Below are positions 488-12,646 of a DNA stretch of 13,649 nt, in pieces (the first letter of the stretch is position 1; each line of letters opens with the position of its first letter). The notes under the pieces were generated by a model. The model searched no databases, was not told the DNA's origin, and saw only the letters and a list, made by a program, of their open reading frames with translations. The position numbers and the translations under genes are program-made. Origin of the DNA: Halococcaceae archaeon (lineage in GTDB: Archaea > Halobacteriota > Halobacteria > Halobacteriales > Halalkalicoccaceae); contig SKWB01000126.1 of assembly GCA_007129135.1 (NCBI GenBank), positions 1 to 13,649 on the forward strand. Reading direction: 5' to 3'.

Positions 488-723
488 GAGGGGTCGTCGG
501 AGGAACCCGTCGTTTCTCGACCGCGAATCGAACGGCACCGGTGGTGTGTAGGGCCGAGAGGGACGATCGGCTCCGGATCCACTCGAAGCAGGTTCACCCG
601 AGCGGCCGCTCTGGAACTATCGTGCTGGATCAGGATCGTCAGGTGTGAGTCGCGAGCGGAATGCGGCCGCTGGGCTCTCGGGTCGGAGGCTCGCGGTCGT
701 GAGGATTCGAAACTCGGAGGGAG

Positions 724-796
724 TAGTCCTGCCTGGATTCGAACCAGGGTCCTTGCCTCCAGAGGGCAAGAGGATTGGCCGCTACCCCACAGGACT
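724..796 (-). tRNA. tRNA-Gln (anticodon CUG)
   Basis: Read on the minus strand, the 73-nt sequence folds as a complete tRNA. The acceptor stem is AGTCCTG paired with CAGGACT, followed by discriminator A, and no CCA is encoded. The T arm is CCTGG-TTCGAAT-CCAGG. The anticodon stem is TTGCC/GGCAA with loop CTCTGGA, placing CTG at positions 34-36, which reads the Gln codon CAG. The D arm has GGGT/ATCC. No intron is visible. It lies 46 bp downstream of the stop of the ArsC-like gene on the same strand. Confidence 0.95.
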
Positions 797-4005: not shown

Positions 4006-4121
4006 CCCTGTCCATGGGGACCGATCCACCGACAGCGGTAAGCTTCTCGGGGTTCAGAGGTGAAAGAAGCTATGAGCTGGACGGGACGGGCTCCCACGCC
4101 CACGGCGGCCGACGACCGACG

Positions 4122-7100
4122 ATGAACGGAGAGGACCGGTTTCGCGTCGTCGTCCTCGGTGACGACGACCTCGCGGCGACGCTCGACGGGACGGTCGACG
4201 CCGTCGTCGAGGCGGGCGATCCGAGCGCCGTCGGCGACGACGTGGCCTGCGTCGTGCTCGTCGACGGGGGTCGTGAGGGGCGAGCGGAGGAGCTCTCGAG
4301 CGGGATCGGCGAGAGCGCGCTGCTCGTCGTCACCGACGATCCGGAGCCGGCCATCGACGCCGGTGCGGACGAGGTCGCACCCCGTGGCTCGATCCCCGTC
4401 CTCGTCAATCGGCTCGAGCGCCTCCTCGCCCATCGACGGCTCGAACACGAGCGGGAGGCGAGCAGGGGCGATCACGAGCGGCTCGCCGAGGCGCTCCCGA
4501 TCGGGATGATCCACCACGGACGGGACGGTGAGATCCGGTTCGCGAACCGGCGGGCACGGGAGCTGCTCGGCCGACCGATCGAGGAGATCACCGCGCTCTC
4601 GTACGACGCCGAGGAGTGGGGCCTCTCCGACCCCGACGGAAACCCCCACTCAGTCGACGACCTCCCGTTCGCGCGGGTGATCTCTGGCGAGTCCCGGATC
4701 GAGAACCACGAGGTGTCCGTCGAGCGGCCGGATGGGAGCCGTGTCAGCCTCTCGGTGAACGCCGCGCCCGTCCCCCTCTCCAAGGGGACCGACGGCGTCC
4801 TCGTCGCGTTCGAGGACCTCACCGAGCGTGTCCGTCTGGAGACCGAGCTCGAATCCCTGCTCGGGCGGGTCACGGACGCCTTCTTCGGGCTCGACGACCG
4901 GTGGCGCTTCACGTACGTCAACGATCGGGCAAGAGAGCAGATCGAGCCGGAGAACCAGGACCTCGTCGGGGAGGTCGTCTGGGAGCTGTTTCCCGACGCC
5001 GTCGGAACGGCGTTCGAGACCGAGTACCGACGGGCGATGAGGACCGGCGAGCCGACGACGTTCGTCGAGTACTACCCCGCCCCCCTCGACGCCTGGTTCG
5101 AGGTGAACGCCTACCCCGACGAGACCGGGCTCTCGGTCTACTTCCGCGACGTCACCGAGCGGGTCGAACGCTCGCGCGAACTCGAACGGTACGCGACCGC
5201 CATCGAGACGCTGCCGACCGGGGTCCTGATCTTCGACCGCGAGGGCGTCGTCTTCGCGAACGACCAGGCAGAGGAGATACTCGGCCGGTCCGCCGACGAG
5301 ATGAGCTCCCTCTCTCACGACGCCGCGGAGTGGGAGATCAGGACGTTCGGGGGCGAGGAGCTCCCCTCGGACCGCCTCCCAGTCGAACGCGTGTTCGAGA
5401 GCGGGGACGCGCTGTTCGACGAGGAGCACACCGTGAACCGGCCGGACGGGTCGACCACCTATCTCTCGGTCAACGCCGCCCCCCGCGGGCCCGGGGAGAC
5501 CGTCGAGGAGGTGACCGTGACGCTCACCGACGTGACCGAGCAGATCCGGCTGGAGAACGAACTCGCCGCCGTCTTCTCTCGCGTCTCCGACGCCGTCTTC
5601 GCGCTCGACGACGAGTGGCGGTTCACCTACGCCAACGACCACGCGACGGAGCTGTTCGGTGCCGACGGGGAGCTCCTCGGCCGCCCGCTCACCGAAGCGG
5701 CCCCCGAGTTCGAGGACTCGGCCGCCTCCGAGTCGTTCTCACGGGCGATGGAGACACAGGAGTCGGTGGGTTTCGAGTGGCACCGCCGCGAACGCGGCCG
5801 ATGGTTCGAGGTGAGTGCATACCCCGGCGAGACGGGCCTCTCGGTCTACGTCGCGGACGTCACGGAACGAAAACGGTTCGAGCGGACGCTGACGGCGCTC
5901 TACGAGATGACGAGCGACCTGCTCTACGCGGAGACGATGGTCGCCGTCTTCTCGCTGGCGACCGAGGCGGCGACCGACGTGATCGGCCTCGACGAGTTCG
6001 AGATATCCCGGTTCGATCCCGCCGAGAACGCCCTCTACCCGGTCTCGGACGAGCGCGGCGCTGGTCGGGCGGACAGGCGCATCTGGCGGGCGTTTTTGAC
6101 CGGGGAGTCACTAGTCGTCGACGAGGGGGATCGGTCGACGTCGATCGTCCCGATCGGCCGTCACGGCGTCGTCGTCGCGTCGGTGGAGGACGCGGGAGAC
6201 CCGAGCGTCACGCTCCTCGAACTGCTGGCGGAGACGACGAACGCGGCGCTCGATCGCGTCGAGAGGGAGACCGCGCTCAGAGAGCGCGACGAAGCGCTCC
6301 GTCGGCGAACGGAACGCCTCGAACGGCTGAACCACAGGGTCGAGACGATGCGGGAGATCGGGGCGGCGCTGCTCGGTGCCGACACGAGAGAGCAGATCGA
6401 GCGGGCCGTCCCCGAACGCCTCGTCGCCGCCGGGTTCCCGCTCGCCTGGATCGGCCGCGTCGACCGCGACGGCGGCGTCGAGGTCGATCACTGGGCTGGC
6501 GAGAGCCGCGAGTATCTCGACCGTCTGGAGGCCGCCGGGCGTTCCGACGAGCCGTCGCACCGAGCGGCCACCGAGCGGGAGGTCGTGGTCGTCTCGAACG
6601 TCTCCTCGAGGCTCCACACCGAGTCCTGGCGGGCTGAGGCGCTCGCTCAGGGCTACCAGTCGGTCCTCTCCGTGCCCCTCTCGCACGACGGTGTCACCTA
6701 CGGGGTAGTGAGCGTCTACGCCGACCACCCGAGGGCGTTCGACGAGCAGAGCGAGGCCGCGTTCGCGGAACTCGGTGACGACGTCGCGTACGCCATCGCC
6801 GCCGTCGAGACCAGACGGGCCCTGCTCTCGGATCGGGTGGTCGAACTGGACCTCCGTCTCCACGGCGTCGAGTGTCCCCTCGGGGACGTCGCCATCGCCG
6901 CGGGCTGTCCCGTCGAGTACGTCGAGAGCAGGCTCACTCCCGACGGGACCACCCACCTCACGGTCGTCGCGGAGCGCGTTCCCGAGGACGGGTTCCGGAG
7001 CCGACTCGAAGGGACACCGGGGATCGAAACCGTCGGTCCACCCACCGGAGACCGCTCGTTCGACGTGGTCACGACCCGTCCAGTGCTCGCCACGCGTCTC

Positions 7101-7499
7101 GCCGGCTTCGGTGCCCGACCGAGGCGGCTACGCACCGATCCGGACGGCGAGATGCGGGCGGTCGTCGAACTCGCACCCGGAACGGACGTCCGCTCGTTCG
7201 TCGAGCACCTCCGGACGGTCCACCCCGACGTCGACCTCCACGCCCGACGTGAGGCCGAGAGAGCCGGGATGACGAACGGGTCGGAGCCCCTCGCGCCGCT
7301 CACCGACCGACAGCGGGAGATCCTCACGACGGCCTATCGGGAGGGCTACTTCGAGTGGCCCCGCGAACGGTCCGGTCAGGACCTGGCGGCCGACCTCGGT
7401 ATCTCCCAGCCGACGTTCCACCGCCACCTCCGGGTCGGAAGCCGCCGCCTGCTCGACGACCTCATCGACGGCGAGCGCGACTCCGAGCCGACTGACTAA
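4122..7499 (+). CDS. Bat-type multi-PAS/GAF sensor with HTH_10 DNA-binding domain
   Basis: A 1125-residue one-protein sensor-regulator related to the bacterioopsin activator Bat. The order is: degenerate receiver-like domain (1-110; VVLGDDD, CVVLVDGG, then TDDPEPAIDAGADEV, with Arg in place of the usual late Lys); PAS1 (about 120-235), PAS2 (246-345), PAS3 (357-470), PAS4 (485-583), each closing with DLTER/DVTER/DVTEQ; a weak GAF-like region (590-712); a coiled coil rich in Arg/Glu (712-745); a clear GAF domain (745-900); a Bat regulatory domain (905-1045); and HTH_10 (about 1060-1115; LTDRQREIL, then SGQDLAADLGISQPTFHRHLR). No His-kinase domain or transmembrane segment is present, so it should act as a soluble transcription regulator. 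PAS1-PAS2 and PAS3-PAS4 are a tandem duplication. ATG 4122 is preferred; an in-frame ATG at 4014 would add 36 residues of unlikely sequence overlapping the promoter region. Target genes and signal are not readable. The HalOD1 gene follows on the same strand. Confidence 0.92.
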   Translation: MNGEDRFRVVVLGDDDLAATLDGTVDAVVEAGDPSAVGDDVACVVLVDGGREGRAEELSSGIGESALLVVTDDPEPAIDAGADEVAPRGSIPVLVNRLERLLAHRRLEHEREASRGDHERLAEALPIGMIHHGRDGEIRFANRRARELLGRPIEEITALSYDAEEWGLSDPDGNPHSVDDLPFARVISGESRIENHEVSVERPDGSRVSLSVNAAPVPLSKGTDGVLVAFEDLTERVRLETELESLLGRVTDAFFGLDDRWRFTYVNDRAREQIEPENQDLVGEVVWELFPDAVGTAFETEYRRAMRTGEPTTFVEYYPAPLDAWFEVNAYPDETGLSVYFRDVTERVERSRELERYATAIETLPTGVLIFDREGVVFANDQAEEILGRSADEMSSLSHDAAEWEIRTFGGEELPSDRLPVERVFESGDALFDEEHTVNRPDGSTTYLSVNAAPRGPGETVEEVTVTLTDVTEQIRLENELAAVFSRVSDAVFALDDEWRFTYANDHATELFGADGELLGRPLTEAAPEFEDSAASESFSRAMETQESVGFEWHRRERGRWFEVSAYPGETGLSVYVADVTERKRFERTLTALYEMTSDLLYAETMVAVFSLATEAATDVIGLDEFEISRFDPAENALYPVSDERGAGRADRRIWRAFLTGESLVVDEGDRSTSIVPIGRHGVVVASVEDAGDPSVTLLELLAETTNAALDRVERETALRERDEALRRRTERLERLNHRVETMREIGAALLGADTREQIERAVPERLVAAGFPLAWIGRVDRDGGVEVDHWAGESREYLDRLEAAGRSDEPSHRAATEREVVVVSNVSSRLHTESWRAEALAQGYQSVLSVPLSHDGVTYGVVSVYADHPRAFDEQSEAAFAELGDDVAYAIAAVETRRALLSDRVVELDLRLHGVECPLGDVAIAAGCPVEYVESRLTPDGTTHLTVVAERVPEDGFRSRLEGTPGIETVGPPTGDRSFDVVTTRPVLATRLAGFGARPRRLRTDPDGEMRAVVELAPGTDVRSFVEHLRTVHPDVDLHARREAERAGMTNGSEPLAPLTDRQREILTTAYREGYFEWPRERSGQDLAADLGISQPTFHRHLRVGSRRLLDDLIDGERDSEPTD

Positions 7500-7876: not shown

Positions 7877-8055
7877 CCCCAGGGACCGAGCGCGTCGCCG
7901 AGGCGACCGCCAGAGCCGATCGCTGTAGCGAGTGTGGTGGGCCGATCGAGACGACCGACTGGCATCCGGTGACGACCCGGGTCGACGAGGAGGGCTCGGT
8001 GGACCTCTACGTGTTCTGTAGCTGGCGCTGTCGGGATCGGTTCGAGGAGCGTTAG
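7873..8055 (+). CDS. Small zinc-finger-like haloarchaeal protein
   Basis: A 60-residue protein with a four-cysteine layout: Cys18-X2-Cys21 (RCSECGGPI) and Cys49-X3-Cys53 (VFCSWRCRDRFEER), separated by 27 residues. This is the pattern of a small zinc ribbon or TRASH-like metal-binding domain, and similar tiny proteins are common in haloarchaea. The start ATG at 7873 overlaps the stop of the HalOD1 gene by 4 nt, which indicates one operon and supports this start. Its TAG overlaps the stop of the convergent DP1 gene. The function is unknown; metal binding, or a partner of the HalOD1 protein, is an inference from cysteines and coupling. The short length and clean start-stop overlap argue that it is a real gene. 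Confidence 0.82.
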   Translation: MTPGTERVAEATARADRCSECGGPIETTDWHPVTTRVDEEGSVDLYVFCSWRCRDRFEER

Positions 8056-9638
8056 CCGAACGAGCGAGCCGTGACCGAGAGGGTATCGAGGTCGAGGATC
8101 ACCGCGTAGGCGACGTCGGGCTGGATGTTCACGCTCCGCTGAAACTCCGTCTGTGCCTGCCAGCACGCGCTGTTGACGATTCGCACCCCGTGGTACTCCC
8201 CCACGCCGAGTTTGTGGACGTGACCGGCGTGGAAGACGTCGGGTACCTCCCCTATCACGAGGTAGTCCCGCTCCTCGGGGGCGATCCGAATTCGTCCGCC
8301 GTACTGCGGGGCGACGTGGCGTTTCTTCAACAGCTGTGTCATCGTCCGCTCGATCGCGTCGTAGCTCGCCTTCGACTCGGGGAGTTCGGCGTTCACCTCG
8401 TCGAAGGAGGTCCCGTGGTACATCAGCACCGAGACGCCCTCGATCGTGACGAGCGAGGGGTTGCCCGTGACCCGCGCGTCGTGAGCCGACATGATCCCCC
8501 TGAGTTCGTCGTCGAAGCCCGGCTGTGGCTCCGCGAGACGAACCGCGTCGTGGTTGCCCGGGATCATCACGATCTCCAAGTCGCCGGGCACCGCCTTCAG
8601 GTGCTCTGCGAACCGCTCGTACTGCTCGTAGATGTCGACGATGGTGAGTTCGGCGTCCTGGTTCGGGTAGACGCCGACGCCCTCGACCATGTCCCCCGCG
8701 ATCAGGAGGTACTCGACGTTCGCTGCTTCCTCGGTGTGGAGCCAGTCGGCGAACCGCTCCCACGCCTCCTCGACGAACTCCTGGCTCCCGACGTGGACGT
8801 CGCTCACGAGCGCGGCCTGGACGTGCCTGTCGGCCGTGTTCGGCCGGTTGGTCCTCGGGACCTCGGGGAAGTGGATCTCGTCGGTGAAGACGATCCCCGC
8901 GTCGTCTGAGAGCGTTCCCCTGACCGCGATCACCTCGTCGCAGAGCAGCTCCCCGACGAGGTCGGCGATCTCCCTGTCCTTCATCACCAGGCAGGGGAAC
9001 CGTCCGGTCGTGTCCTCCAGTTCGATCAGCCAGTGGCCGTTCGCGGTCGAGCGGATGTCGTTGACCATCCCCACGAGGTCGACGTCGCTCCCGCCGGGCA
9101 TCCCGCGTACCGCACGCATCGGCCGGTGGTTCACCCGCCCGCGCAGCATCGCTGAGAGCCGTTCGTAGCGGTCGCGAAAGAGCGAGACGAACTGCTTGTA
9201 CTCGCCCGTGCCCGTGCTCCGTCCGGTGATGTCGCCGGTGATCTCGATCGGGTCGGTGGGTCTCGTCGCCAGCTCCCCGTCCGCTCCCGGTTCGAGCGCC
9301 GTTCCGTCGTCCGAGCCTGGGGGAGTCACCGAAGACCCCTTCGTTTCCACTGGAGCGTTTTCCGCTCCATCGGGCGGTTTCGGGTCCGGTGTTCCAGTGG
9401 AAACGGAGGGGTCCCCGTTCGACGGCGGCGAGGACGACGACCGACCTTTCACATCGAGGACGGACCGGACGTGCTCGCCGGTGAGGACCAGCGTCCCCTC
9501 CGGGAGGCTCTCGGTGACTCGCTCGACCGTCTCGTCGAACTCCTCGACCTCCGCGAGCAGCGTGAGCGCCTCTCGGTCGACGTTGATCCCACGGCTGGCG
9601 AGCGCCCTGAGAACCCGGCGGTCCGCCTCGTCTGACAC
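8052..9638 (-). CDS. polD1: DNA polymerase D small subunit DP1 (PolD exonuclease subunit)
   Basis: A 528-residue protein, the 3'-5' exonuclease/proofreading subunit of the archaeal replicative polymerase PolD. Residues 1-60 form the N-terminal helical domain (RRVLRALASRGINVDREALTLLAEV). Residues about 62-140 are a low-complexity linker rich in Gly, Pro, Ser and Asp. An OB-fold follows (about 180-265; VDLVGMVNDIRSTANGHWLIELEDTTG). The Mre11-like phosphodiesterase domain keeps all motifs: VSDVHVGS (about 278), IAGDMVEG (about 315), IPGNHDAV (about 360), MYHGTSFDE (about 408) and HAGHVHKLG (about 470), so it should be active. The start is GTG at 9636-9638, giving VSDEADRRVLRALA; no ATG lies nearby and the upstream frame is antisense to the next gene. 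The catalytic large subunit DP2 is not in the window. Two ORB-like DNA elements lie inside the linker coding sequence. Confidence 0.94.
   Translation of the reverse strand: MSDEADRRVLRALASRGINVDREALTLLAEVEEFDETVERVTESLPEGTLVLTGEHVRSVLDVKGRSSSSPPSNGDPSVSTGTPDPKPPDGAENAPVETKGSSVTPPGSDDGTALEPGADGELATRPTDPIEITGDITGRSTGTGEYKQFVSLFRDRYERLSAMLRGRVNHRPMRAVRGMPGGSDVDLVGMVNDIRSTANGHWLIELEDTTGRFPCLVMKDREIADLVGELLCDEVIAVRGTLSDDAGIVFTDEIHFPEVPRTNRPNTADRHVQAALVSDVHVGSQEFVEEAWERFADWLHTEEAANVEYLLIAGDMVEGVGVYPNQDAELTIVDIYEQYERFAEHLKAVPGDLEIVMIPGNHDAVRLAEPQPGFDDELRGIMSAHDARVTGNPSLVTIEGVSVLMYHGTSFDEVNAELPESKASYDAIERTMTQLLKKRHVAPQYGGRIRIAPEERDYLVIGEVPDVFHAGHVHKLGVGEYHGVRIVNSACWQAQTEFQRSVNIQPDVAYAVILDLDTLSVTARSFG
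9334..9354 (-). repeat. ORB-like element inside the DP1 gene, left arm
   Basis: Read on the minus strand, TCCAGTGGAAACGAAGGGGT matches the origin ORB core at 12428-12447 at 19 of 20 positions. It lies in the coding strand orientation of DP1 and encodes PVETKGS in the linker. It is the left arm of a divergent pair, with the G-run pointing left. The longer G-string of the oriC boxes is missing. Similarity is directly visible; Orc1 binding is inferred. Confidence 0.7.
9393..9413 (+). repeat. ORB-like element inside the DP1 gene, right arm
   Basis: TCCAGTGGAAACGGAGGGGT is identical to the left arm except for one base. It points the opposite way, so the G-runs face outward and the TCCA ends face a 38-bp spacer (9355-9392). 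On the DP1 coding strand this DNA encodes DPSVSTG, unrelated to the peptide of the other arm. The oriC boxes have the same divergent layout. Confidence 0.7.
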
Positions 9639-9716: not shown

Positions 9717-10586
9717 ATGAGTGGCCCCGAGGACGGCCCCCGAGACGGCGGCGGGTCGTCGCCACCGAACCGATCCGATACCGCCACCACCGGGACCCCG
9801 GGTGAGGAGCGCCCGGAGTCCCCTCGGGAGTGGGCCCACTGGGCGTGGACGGTCGACCACGGCTGGGTGATGGTCGGGAGGGAGATCGCGATCAGCGCGA
9901 GCGTCGTCCTCCTGATCGGTCTGTTGCTCTTCGGCGTTGCCGGCGTCTGGCCGCCGATGGTCGCGATCGAGAGCGGTTCGATGAGCCCGAACATGCACCA
10001 GAACGACCTCGTGTTCATCACCGCGCCCGACCGCTTCGCGAACGACGCCTCCATCGAGGGTACGGGGATCGTCCCCGCCGACGAGGCCGAAGAGGAGAGT
10101 TACAGCAAGTTCGGCGAGGCCGGCGACGTGATCGTCTTCACCCCCAACGGCAACGACCATCGCACGCCGATCATCCACCGTGCCGAACTCTGGGTCGAAG
10201 AGGGCGAGGACTGGTACGACCGGGCCGATCCCGAGGCGATAGGCACCGCGGAGAGCTGTGACGAGCTACAGAACTGTCCCGCGCCCCACGACGGCTTCAT
10301 CACCAAGGGCGACAACGAGGTGACGAACACCCAGTACGATCAGGTCCGCGGCCAGAGCGAACCCGTCAAGCCCGAGTGGGTGATCGGCACCGCCGAACTC
10401 CGGGTCCCCTATCTCGGCTGGGTGCGCCTCCAGCTCGCCGAACTGACCTCGCCGGGCACGGTGACCGTCGAAACCCTCTCGGAACCGAGGACGTCCCCCG
10501 ATCCCGTCGCGCCGGTCGAGCCAGTACGCGCGACCGACGCATCCGGGGTCGACCGAGCCGGAACAGACCGCTGTCTCCTCGCGTAG
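9717..10586 (+). CDS. sec11: Signal peptidase I (Sec11-type, archaeal)
   Basis: A 289-residue membrane peptidase that would cleave signal peptides of Sec-exported preproteins outside the membrane. The N-terminal 50 residues are a charged, low-complexity cytoplasmic tail. One transmembrane helix spans about 57-80 (REIAISASVVLLIGLLLFGV). The catalytic Ser is Ser88 in IESGSMSPNM. As in Sec11-type enzymes the general base is His (PIIHRAEL, His154), not Lys. Acidic residues follow in FITKGDNEVTNTQYD (Asp199, Asp208). Between Ser and His is an acidic halophilic insertion (about 105-130), and Cys181/Cys187 may pair. After VPYLGWVRLQL the C-terminus is a Pro/Asp-rich tail of about 45 residues with no second clear membrane helix. 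ATG 9717 is preceded by a TATA-like TTCAAAC (9687-9693) at leaderless-promoter spacing. The gene is divergent from DP1 and convergent with orc1, an order I recall from other haloarchaeal origins. Confidence 0.93.
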   Translation: MSGPEDGPRDGGGSSPPNRSDTATTGTPGEERPESPREWAHWAWTVDHGWVMVGREIAISASVVLLIGLLLFGVAGVWPPMVAIESGSMSPNMHQNDLVFITAPDRFANDASIEGTGIVPADEAEEESYSKFGEAGDVIVFTPNGNDHRTPIIHRAELWVEEGEDWYDRADPEAIGTAESCDELQNCPAPHDGFITKGDNEVTNTQYDQVRGQSEPVKPEWVIGTAELRVPYLGWVRLQLAELTSPGTVTVETLSEPRTSPDPVAPVEPVRATDASGVDRAGTDRCLLA

Positions 10587-10704: not shown

Positions 10705-12195
10705 TCAATTGTCGAATCGCGCCTGAACGAACGGCTGGACGTCCTCGATATCCCCGAGCCGTGAGTCGGCCATCAACACCGCCTCGGTCTCGTCGATCGG
10801 GACCGAGAGGGTGATCTCCTTCGTCCGACCGTAGCGACCCTTGCTCACGACCGAGGCGTTCGCGATGCCGAGCATGTCGAGTTCGCTGATCAGGTCCGTC
10901 ACCCGGCGCTGGGTGAGCGGGTCGGCGTCGATCTCCCCGCAGAGCCGTTTGTAGATGTTGTAGACTTCGCCGGTGTTGATCGTGTGAATCCCGTTCTTCT
11001 CCAGGAGGATAATCGCGAAGAGGACGAGCTTCGACTGTGTGGGAAGCGTCCGAACGACCTCGACGACCCTGTCGAGTTCGATCTTGTCCTGTGCCTGCCG
11101 GACGTGTTCCTCGTCGACCTCGCCGAGCCCTTCCCGTTCGGCGAGTTCGCCCGCGGTGCGAAGCAGGTCGAGCGCCCGGCGGGCGTCGCCGTGTTCCTGG
11201 GCGGCGAACGCCGCACAGAGCGGGATGACGTCTTCCGTGAGCGCGTCGGGTTCGAACGCGATCTCGGCACGGTGCTGGAGGATGTCACGGAGCTGCGTCG
11301 CGTCGTAGGGCGGGAAGACGATCTCCTCCTCGCCCAGACTCGATTTCACCCGGGGGTCGAGGAAGTCGGTGAACTTGAGATCGTTCGAGATGCCGATGAT
11401 CGACACGCGCGAGTTCTCGAGTTCGCTGTTCATCCGGGAGAGGTTGTAGAGCGTGTCGTCGCCGGACTTCTCGACGAGTTTGTCGATCTCGTCGAGCATG
11501 ATCACGACGACACGCTCTCTGTGATCGACCGCGTCGAAGAACTCTTGATAAACCCGGTCCGTCGGCCAGCCGGTCATCGGAACGGCCTCCATCCCCTCTA
11601 GCTCCCCCTCGAGCGTCTCGATCCGGTCGTCGACCGCCGAGACCGTCTCGAACGGGGTCTCCGCGAGCGAGTCGCGCTCCTCCCGTACGTCCTCGGCGAG
11701 CGTTCGAAGCCGGTCGAGGCCGCGTTCGACCCCTCGCTCGTTCGCCTCGATGAACTTGTTTCCGAGCTGTGCCAGCACCCGGTACTGGGTGTCGGTCACC
11801 TCGCAGTTGATGTACTCGACCTCACAGGGGACGTCGTACTTCTTCGAGGTCTGTTCGAGCTCCTGGCTGACGAACTTCGCGCTCGCGGTCTTCCCGGTGC
11901 CGGTCTTGCCGTAGATGAGGATGTTCGAGGGGGTCTCACCCCGGAGGGCGGCGACGAGGATCGTCGCCATCTTGCTGATCTGATCGGAGCGGTGGGGGAG
12001 TTCGTGGGGGGTGTAGGAGGGGCGAAGCACCTCCTTGTTCTCGAAGATCGGCTCCCCGCTCATCAGGTCGTCGAACAGTCCCTGGCTGGTCCCCTCGTCC
12101 TCGAGTACCTCCTCGATCTCGACGTCGAACGACCAGTCGTCGCCCGTCGCTCGACGCCCCCTGCCGTTCGTCCCTGATTCGTTGTCGCCCGTCAT
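10705..12195 (-). CDS. orc1: Orc1/Cdc6 replication initiator
   Basis: A 496-residue AAA+ initiator that binds ORBs and recruits the MCM helicase. Motifs: Walker A GKTGTGKT (96-103), Walker B IMLDEIDKL (DEID 235-238), sensor 1 IGISND (about 268-272), arginine-finger candidate in DPRVKSSL (Arg282), and sensor 2 EHGDARRALDLLR (335-346). A winged-helix domain runs from about 380 to the end (TGEVYNIYKRLCGEIDADPL, then RRVTDLISELDMLGI and SKGRYGRTKEI). Residues about 152-205 form an acidic, probably coiled insertion between Walker A and B. The first 45 residues are an acidic tail. The start at 12195 (ATG) gives the common N-terminus and is followed upstream by an ORB-like element 11-34 nt away, suggesting autoregulation. 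Its place next to an ORB-flanked AT-rich region identifies it as the initiator of this origin (oriC1-type). Confidence 0.96.
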   Translation of the reverse strand: MTGDNESGTNGRGRRATGDDWSFDVEIEEVLEDEGTSQGLFDDLMSGEPIFENKEVLRPSYTPHELPHRSDQISKMATILVAALRGETPSNILIYGKTGTGKTASAKFVSQELEQTSKKYDVPCEVEYINCEVTDTQYRVLAQLGNKFIEANERGVERGLDRLRTLAEDVREERDSLAETPFETVSAVDDRIETLEGELEGMEAVPMTGWPTDRVYQEFFDAVDHRERVVVIMLDEIDKLVEKSGDDTLYNLSRMNSELENSRVSIIGISNDLKFTDFLDPRVKSSLGEEEIVFPPYDATQLRDILQHRAEIAFEPDALTEDVIPLCAAFAAQEHGDARRALDLLRTAGELAEREGLGEVDEEHVRQAQDKIELDRVVEVVRTLPTQSKLVLFAIILLEKNGIHTINTGEVYNIYKRLCGEIDADPLTQRRVTDLISELDMLGIANASVVSKGRYGRTKEITLSVPIDETEAVLMADSRLGDIEDVQPFVQARFDN

Positions 12196-12205
12196 AGATG
12201 CAAGT

Positions 12206-12229
12206 GAACCCCCCTATTTCGAGTGGAAT
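12206..12229 (-). repeat. ORB-like element upstream of orc1
   Basis: On the minus strand ATTCCACTCGAAATAGGGGG (12210-12229) followed by GTTC keeps the TCCA...GAAA...GGGG frame of the ORBs, though the CGAA before the G-run is altered. It lies 11-34 nt before the orc1 ATG, overlapping the expected leader or promoter. Confidence 0.6.
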
Positions 12230-12418: not shown

Positions 12419-12450
12419 AACCCCCCCACCCCTTCGTTTCTACTGGAGAC
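12419..12450 (-). repeat. Origin recognition box with G-string (left)
   Basis: On the minus strand the core is TCCAGTAGAAACGAAGGGGT (12428-12447), followed by seven more G. The G-string points away from the AT-rich segment. Haloarchaeal ORBs are known to carry such G-strings. Confidence 0.85.
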
Positions 12451-12620: not shown

Positions 12621-12646
12621 CTCCACCCGAAACGAAGGGGTGGGGG
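12621..12646 (+). repeat. Origin recognition box with G-string (right)
   Basis: The core TCCACCCGAAACGAAGGGGT (12622-12641) is followed by five more G, pointing away from the AT-rich segment. With the left box it forms an inverted pair about 175 bp apart. Directly after it, GTTCC-GTGT-GGAAC (12646-12659) reads on the other strand as TTCCACACGGAAC, which resembles the first half of an ORB. Confidence 0.85.

Follow-up and report, generated by a model that had tools for sequence, protein, structure and literature searches.

Gene layout and ORB elements of the window

The window, the stretch of 13,649 nucleotides analysed in this study, is contig C66 of a haloarchaeal genome that is 70.9% complete and consists of 400 contigs totalling 2.70 Mb; counts given for this genome as a whole are lower bounds because the assembly is a draft. 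The locus is a meeting place of initiator, origin and polymerase genes, and includes a pair of ORB elements within the reading frame of DP1. The features are as follows:

8052..9638, minus strand: polD1/DP1, small subunit of the family D DNA polymerase (PF04042, PF00149), with a GTG start at 9638
9335..9354, minus strand: ORB right arm (3' arm in the gene), TCCAGTGGAAACGAAGGGGT, read in the DP1 sense and encoding PVETKG
9355..9392, no strand: spacer of 38 bp, unconserved in sequence and of the same length in 97 of 112 pairs
9393..9412, plus strand: ORB left arm (5' arm in the gene), TCCAGTGGAAACGGAGGGGT, read opposite to DP1 and encoding DPSVSTG in the DP1 sense
9717..10586, plus strand: gene between DP1 and orc1, with no Pfam match, at the position that the published map of haloarchaeal oriC1 gives to the signal peptidase (PMC4010727, excerpt)
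10705..12195, minus strand: orc1/cdc6 initiator gene (Cdc6_C, Cdc6_lid; best matches 2qby_A and 2v1u_A)
12428..12447, minus strand: orc1-proximal (left) ORB of oriC1, core TCCAGTAGAAACGAAGGGGT
12622..12641, plus strand: orc1-distal ORB of oriC1

The best matches of the window's Orc1 are the archaeal initiator chains 2qby_A and 2v1u_A, whose structures were reportedly determined in complex with origin DNA. A third ORB-like site, TCCACTCGAAATAGGGGGGT, lies at 12208-12227 (minus strand, 4 mismatches), 12 bp upstream of the orc1 start. Of 94 genomes with aligned orc1 starts, 47 have an ORB-like site of the same orientation between -90 and +30 of that start, and none has one on the opposite strand; these sites may possibly serve self-regulation of orc1. 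Elsewhere, the window carries a tRNA-Gln (CTG) gene at 723-796 (minus strand) and, at 4014-7499 (plus strand), a long open frame that resembles a multi-domain sensor-regulator and contains direct repeats spaced about 710 bp from each other.

The DP1 pair begins at nucleotide 227 of the gene and sits in the variable linker of the protein, which comprises 39-180 residues and is poorly alignable except for two peptide islands, DPSVSTG and PVETKG. Both arms carry the TCCA..GAAAC..GGGG core common to the origin ORBs of the same genome, and the pair is located 3.0 kb from oriC1. A sequence-only reading of the window had described an origin-like divergent ORB pair at this site, and its description was reproduced. 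Positions 9334-9354 (reverse-complemented) and 9393-9413, when re-read, agree at 20 of 21 positions, and the arms match the core of the left oriC1 ORB (12428-12447) at 19/20 and 18/20. The G-runs face outward and the TCCA ends inward around the 38-bp spacer, with no long G-run, and the arms encode PVETKGS and DPSVSTG, both in the DP1 frame. The two oriC1 ORBs of the window are also divergent, with starts 194 bp apart versus 58 bp for the DP1 pair.

Conservation, rarity and selection on the DNA

DP1 was found in all 145 sampled genomes of the class, the window's own included, with the gene of G092 cut off before the relevant stretch. A divergent pair within the DP1 frame was called in 112 of the 145 genomes when each arm was allowed up to 6 mismatches at its 18 fixed positions, a threshold on which the pair counts depend. 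These pairs are spread over 51 of 59 genera, their phase relative to the DP1 reading frame is identical in 112/112, and the spacing between site starts is 58 bp in 97, 55 bp in 11 and 70 bp in 4. In a second set of 80 titled contigs, probably overlapping in species with the first, the pair was present in 74, in 69 of them at a spacing of 58 bp. At 3 mismatches or fewer, the right arm was detected in 110, the left arm in 72 and at least one arm in 120 of the 144 informative genomes; a stretch of the same length in the catalytic part of DP1 came within 3 mismatches in none of the 144. A strict 78-bp pattern (both arms, exactly 38 free bases, no more than 3 mismatches in total) matched 147 of 391 genomes, the counts per genome covering all 391; outside the 145 genomes the matching place is not necessarily DP1. 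The match fell at one place in 145 of the 147 and at two in G116, which has two DP1 copies, and in G427. The backward control of this pattern gave no match in any of the 391 genomes.

Among close relatives, the expectation that the repeat would be kept held for the same genus and largely failed for a neighbouring one. The pair has 0 mismatches to the degenerate pattern in G420, the one other sampled genome of the window's genus, and 1 mismatch in the nearest named locus (L158, DP1 88% identical), whereas of the six genomes of g2, a neighbouring genus within the family, one passes the 3-mismatch pattern and five fail it. No pair was called in 33 of the 145 genomes, including G092 with its missing stretch. 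Of these 33, 19 keep the CCA, GAA and GGG codons of the right arm, among them all 15 genomes of genus g7, which retain right-arm codons only, and a few keep the left-arm codons alone. Neither arm was within 4 mismatches in 12 of 144 genomes, G060 of the window's own family being one of them. In the second set, the seven Haloferax loci have 6-11 mismatches summed over both arms, and the one Halorubrum locus has only the right arm, with 0 mismatches. Two further observations concern single sites. G021 (locus L152), a genome of the same taxonomic order whose DP1 is only 50% identical to that of the window, carries the left arm only, TCCAGACGAAACAGAGGGGT, encoding DPSVSSG. Three genomes of genus g23 share an ORB-like word, TCGAGTGGAAGCGAAGGGGT, beside DP1 and outside the pair, in L020 (1419), L022 (169) and L036 (4377).

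No linker pair was present in 40 outgroup genomes of the same phylum, a sample drawn from 160 outgroup genomes with DP1 found and covering 19 families; their linkers gave two single weak hits with 5 mismatches. With a looser 16-position core and up to 6 mismatches, 19 of the 40 outgroup DP1 genes showed a pair, but with scattered positions and spacings, and this setting is therefore regarded as noise in the outgroup. With the same core, up to 4 mismatches and the whole reading frame, any site was found in 5 of 40 outgroup versus 140 of 145 haloarchaeal genes. Three of the five outgroup sites are one shared single ORB-like site of family f18, TGCAGTGGAAATRGAGGGGG, in the DP1 frame of G152, G161 and G170 (L268, L272 and L279), outside the linker stretch scanned for pairs. 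It may represent a dp1 ORB of independent origin, or its likeness to an ORB may stem from the protein.

The sequence-only reading had allowed that equally good pairs might be common at random, and this did not prove to be so. Chance likeness is rejected by the genome scan, by permuted and backward cores and by the backward control of the strict pattern. In the 2.7-Mb draft, sites with no more than 3 mismatches to one arm number five (two in DP1, two in oriC1 and one on contig C350), and the backward-read arm pattern gave none at that threshold. When divergent pairs 20-150 bp apart inside the DP1 reading frame were sought in the 145 class genomes, the window's own among them, 100 permuted cores gave a pair in a mean of 1.6 genomes, with a maximum of 20, versus 112 for the real core. 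The core read backwards gave a divergent pair in 0/145, and the convergent arrangement of the real core was present in 5/145. At 3 mismatches or fewer, the DP1 N-domain and linker together (61 kb) contained 182 sites and the catalytic part (211 kb) contained 4, while 358 were counted in the 1008 kb upstream of DP1, where oriC1 lies.

Codon choice within the arms bears on whether the DNA itself is under selection, as had been claimed from the single sequence. In a protein alignment of the 145 genomes, with the expectation for a codon given its amino acid taken from each gene's own catalytic part, a large excess was observed for Pro CCA (124/127, expected 6.9), Glu GAA (137/138, expected 34.3), Gly GGG (122/129, expected 29.6), Val GTT (88/90, expected 6.0), Thr ACT (93/98, expected 5.0) and Gly GGA (93/99, expected 8.0). 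The excess was weaker for Pro CCC (86/99, expected 48.0) and Thr ACG (85/123, expected 53.0), and little was seen for Asp GAC (68/73 versus 62.7). This test is independent of any motif-based choice of genomes because it is built on the alignment of all 145, and its result was unchanged with one genome per genus. In 300 synonymous shuffles of each of the 112 pairs, which had been chosen by motif score, the mean number of mismatches was 13.99 versus 5.38 observed, and fewer than 1% of the shuffles were as good in 112/112 pairs. Comparison of the linker among relatives found the arms conserved and the spacer and flanks variable: in the 97 pairs of equal spacing, information content was 1.44 and 1.46 bits per base in the arms, 0.29 in the spacer and 0.27 in the flanks. 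The claim of selection on the DNA is strongly supported by the ORB-making codons, the synonymous shuffles and a spacer nearly fixed in length but unconserved in sequence, and such selection may be taken as shown as far as sequence allows. The protein also leaves its mark on the DP1 arms. Positions 13-15 are mostly GGA in DP1 arms and GAA in oriC1 ORBs, and the free triplet 5-7 is mostly GTC or GTT in the former and more often CCC, CTC or CCT in the latter.

Possible roles of the DP1 pair

The element is very probably a pair of Orc1 docking sites in the DP1 frame under DNA-level selection, a statement of its identity and not of its role; as a predicted Orc1 docking site, it is well supported by motif identity. 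Counting against it are the class genomes that lack a pair, the poorly matching g2 and Haloferax genes, the absence of a pair from the outgroup linkers and the differing base preferences of DP1 arms and oriC1 ORBs. Selection on the DNA would keep two back-to-back ORBs at nearly fixed spacing, with the encoded peptides (DPSVSTG, PVETKG) largely a by-product of ORB retention. As the known role of ORBs suggests, each ORB would be occupied by one Orc1 molecule, giving two bound molecules about 190-460 bp into the gene. Little is settled about how archaea avoid over-initiation and keep the supply of replisomes in step with initiation. That the bound pair acts in cis on DP1 is a tentative reading, somewhat short of an even chance: lying inside transcribed DNA, the pair might work as an operator or a roadblock and thereby make DP1 synthesis follow the level or the nucleotide state of Orc1. 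A location well inside the gene is unusual for a repressor and counts against the repressor form of this reading. Since the arms could be removed by synonymous change without touching the protein, in a tractable haloarchaeon, the role is directly testable.

A possible but rather doubtful alternative is that the pair acts as an initiator buffer, titrating or storing Orc1 and thereby damping re-initiation, as has been proposed for oriC2D and datA. Strong ORBs are scarce, from 1 to 9 per genome (16-position pattern, no more than 1 mismatch, 145 genomes), and the two in DP1 are hence a sizeable share, and the window pair, so close to oriC1, would double soon after firing. A precedent exists in 11 ORBs downstream of cdc6E that repress oriC2 without origin activity, as described in the excerpted text of PMC3936714. 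However, the pair offers two sites only, and titration requires no fixed spacing, orientation or residence in a single gene, all of which the pair has. Its geometry is fixed in one gene regardless of the distance to orc1, and an element acting on DP1 therefore fits somewhat better than an Orc1 buffer. The evidence obtained here does not separate titration from regulation of DP1.

It is unlikely that the pair forms part of the oriC1 machine, with Orc1 at DP1 looping to oriC1 or aiding helicase loading, or with the pair itself as an accessory origin. The layout is divergent as in oriC1, and among the 117 loci with enough upstream DNA, 95 have orc1 no more than 3 kb upstream of DP1 (71 of these 95 with the pair). 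The linkage of cdc6 and DP1 genes has been read as a DP1 role at the origin (PMC2643942, excerpt). In the remaining loci, orc1 lies 3.4-4.3 kb upstream in 3 and is absent from about 8-9 kb upstream in 19. The tally leaves out 28 loci with too little upstream DNA; where the upstream DNA was shorter than 2.5 kb, the ORB lists mix in DP1 sites and were excluded. Against a part in oriC1, the pair is retained in 12 of the 19 genomes without orc1 in the upstream DNA; in these 12, orc1 is about 5 kb away on the other side of DP1 in G042, G074 and G090, about 11-59 kb away in eight (in G037 the distance runs over the contig ends, its single contig being treated as a circle) and, in G045, about 193 kb away. 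Some of the moves among the 19 look recent: for both G045 and G120, orc1 is no more than 5 kb upstream in a congener (G046 or G116). Right-arm mismatches averaged 2.61 with orc1 within 5 kb (n=98) versus 2.58 without (n=19; p=0.54), and left-arm mismatches 4.05 with orc1 within 5 kb versus 4.53 with orc1 not in the upstream DNA (p=0.45), the unlinked set of 19 genomes representing 8 genera and few independent moves. A dependence on closeness to oriC1 is thus unsupported, arm quality showing no difference with linkage. Because the sites are kept with orc1 about 5-193 kb away, a part in oriC1 is less favoured than a role that is linked to the gene or does not depend on position.

The composition of the site also speaks against an origin. 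An AT-rich unwinding element between the ORBs is absent from the 38-bp spacer, whose GC content averages 0.63 (range 0.34-0.79, 97 pairs) versus 0.65 for the gene. The extended halophile-specific G-string after the core is missing from both DP1 arms of the window, and the 10 nt that follow the core contain 6 or more G for 23 of 224 DP1 arms versus 98 of 147 oriC1 ORBs; the DP1 arms are therefore not classed as origin-type ORBs. This G-string has been reported to be essential for oriC1 in Haloarcula hispanica (PMC3936714, excerpt). With a GC-rich spacer and the G-string mostly missing, an origin is unlikely, and the accessory-origin suggestion of the sequence-only reading is disfavoured.

Selection at the protein level, with DPSVSTG and PVETKG as interaction motifs of the linker and the DNA likeness secondary, is very improbable. 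The two peptides are indeed the recognisable islands of the linker. However, the codons are forced to ORB-making ones, several of them uncommon elsewhere in the same gene, and the residues vary where the ORB is degenerate (at its NNN triplet Val 88, Pro 25, Ala 8 and Asp 8). Third codon positions are the most conserved in the arms, at 1.53 bits, and the least conserved in the spacer, at 0.10, with 0.22 in the flanks (97 pairs). Protein-level conservation as the sole cause is rejected by the codon tests and is largely refuted. Equally improbable is that the inverted repeat serves the DP1 mRNA as a hairpin or a translation signal: the arms form an inverted repeat in the transcript and agree clearly beyond expectation only at positions 7 and 16 (z 4.6 and 4.4), but overall arm-to-arm agreement is 0.786 versus 0.776 with arms shuffled among genomes, each arm alone resembles the oriC1 ORBs, and right-arm codons persist in pair-less genomes as noted above, so that the arms vary independently and a conserved hairpin is unlikely.

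Relation to known initiator-binding systems

In four Thermococcales, the DP1 gene has been described as containing an ORB and mini-ORB repeats (Matsunaga et al. 2007, cited in Berthon et al. 2008, PMC2643942), a precedent that the sequence-only reading does not mention. As far as the excerpted text describes them, these sites resemble the haloarchaeal pair in being initiator boxes that lie within the DP1 coding sequence and close to cdc6/oriC, and both properties recur in haloarchaea. The haloarchaeal element differs in consisting of two divergent ORBs in the DP1 linker, mostly with a 38-bp spacer, and in its codon-level constraint and its retention away from orc1. The 2007 work of Matsunaga and colleagues is said to have found Cdc6/Orc1 bound to the dp1 cluster both in vivo (ChIP) and in vitro (gel shift), and the arrangement of the cluster is reportedly conserved within the order. 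A wider and rather doubtful proposal is that Orc1 directly controls DP1 synthesis through an operator in the codons of DP1, a two-Orc1 switch of fixed geometry in most haloarchaea that would form, together with the Thermococcales dp1 ORBs, one ancient archaeal circuit of initiator and polymerase.

Other systems share single aspects with the pair. According to the excerpts of the papers cited, oriC2D of Haloarcula hispanica likewise consists of non-origin ORBs downstream of a cdc6 gene in a haloarchaeon, without origin activity, and it is a recorded case of ORBs exerting negative control from outside an origin; however, it is an intergenic 11-ORB cluster beside cdc6E and oriC2, whereas the DP1 element is an intragenic pair near oriC1 (PMC3936714). 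Haloarchaeal oriC1 has the same ORB core and divergent orientation as the DP1 pair but is intergenic, with an AT-rich core between the ORBs and extended G-strings (PMC3528665, PMC3936714). The datA locus of E. coli, an initiator-binding locus outside the origin, is alike in working principle only, as it consists of bacterial DnaA sites and has no relationship to the DP1 pair (PMC3936714, PMC4010727).

Two haloarchaeal origin surveys searched, by their excerpted text, intergenic regions beside cdc6 genes (PMC3528665, PMC4595724); confined to intergenic DNA, they would have missed the DP1 pair. No report of ORBs inside haloarchaeal DP1 was found in the parts of the open-licence literature consulted, and the pair may still be published, since a search whose scope excludes subscription papers and supplements is no proof of novelty. 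On the excerpts compared here, ORBs in the dp1 gene are already known from Thermococcales, and what is new is a different architecture with a separate and larger conservation record: a DNA element within an essential coding gene that is visible through codon choice over most of an archaeal class.
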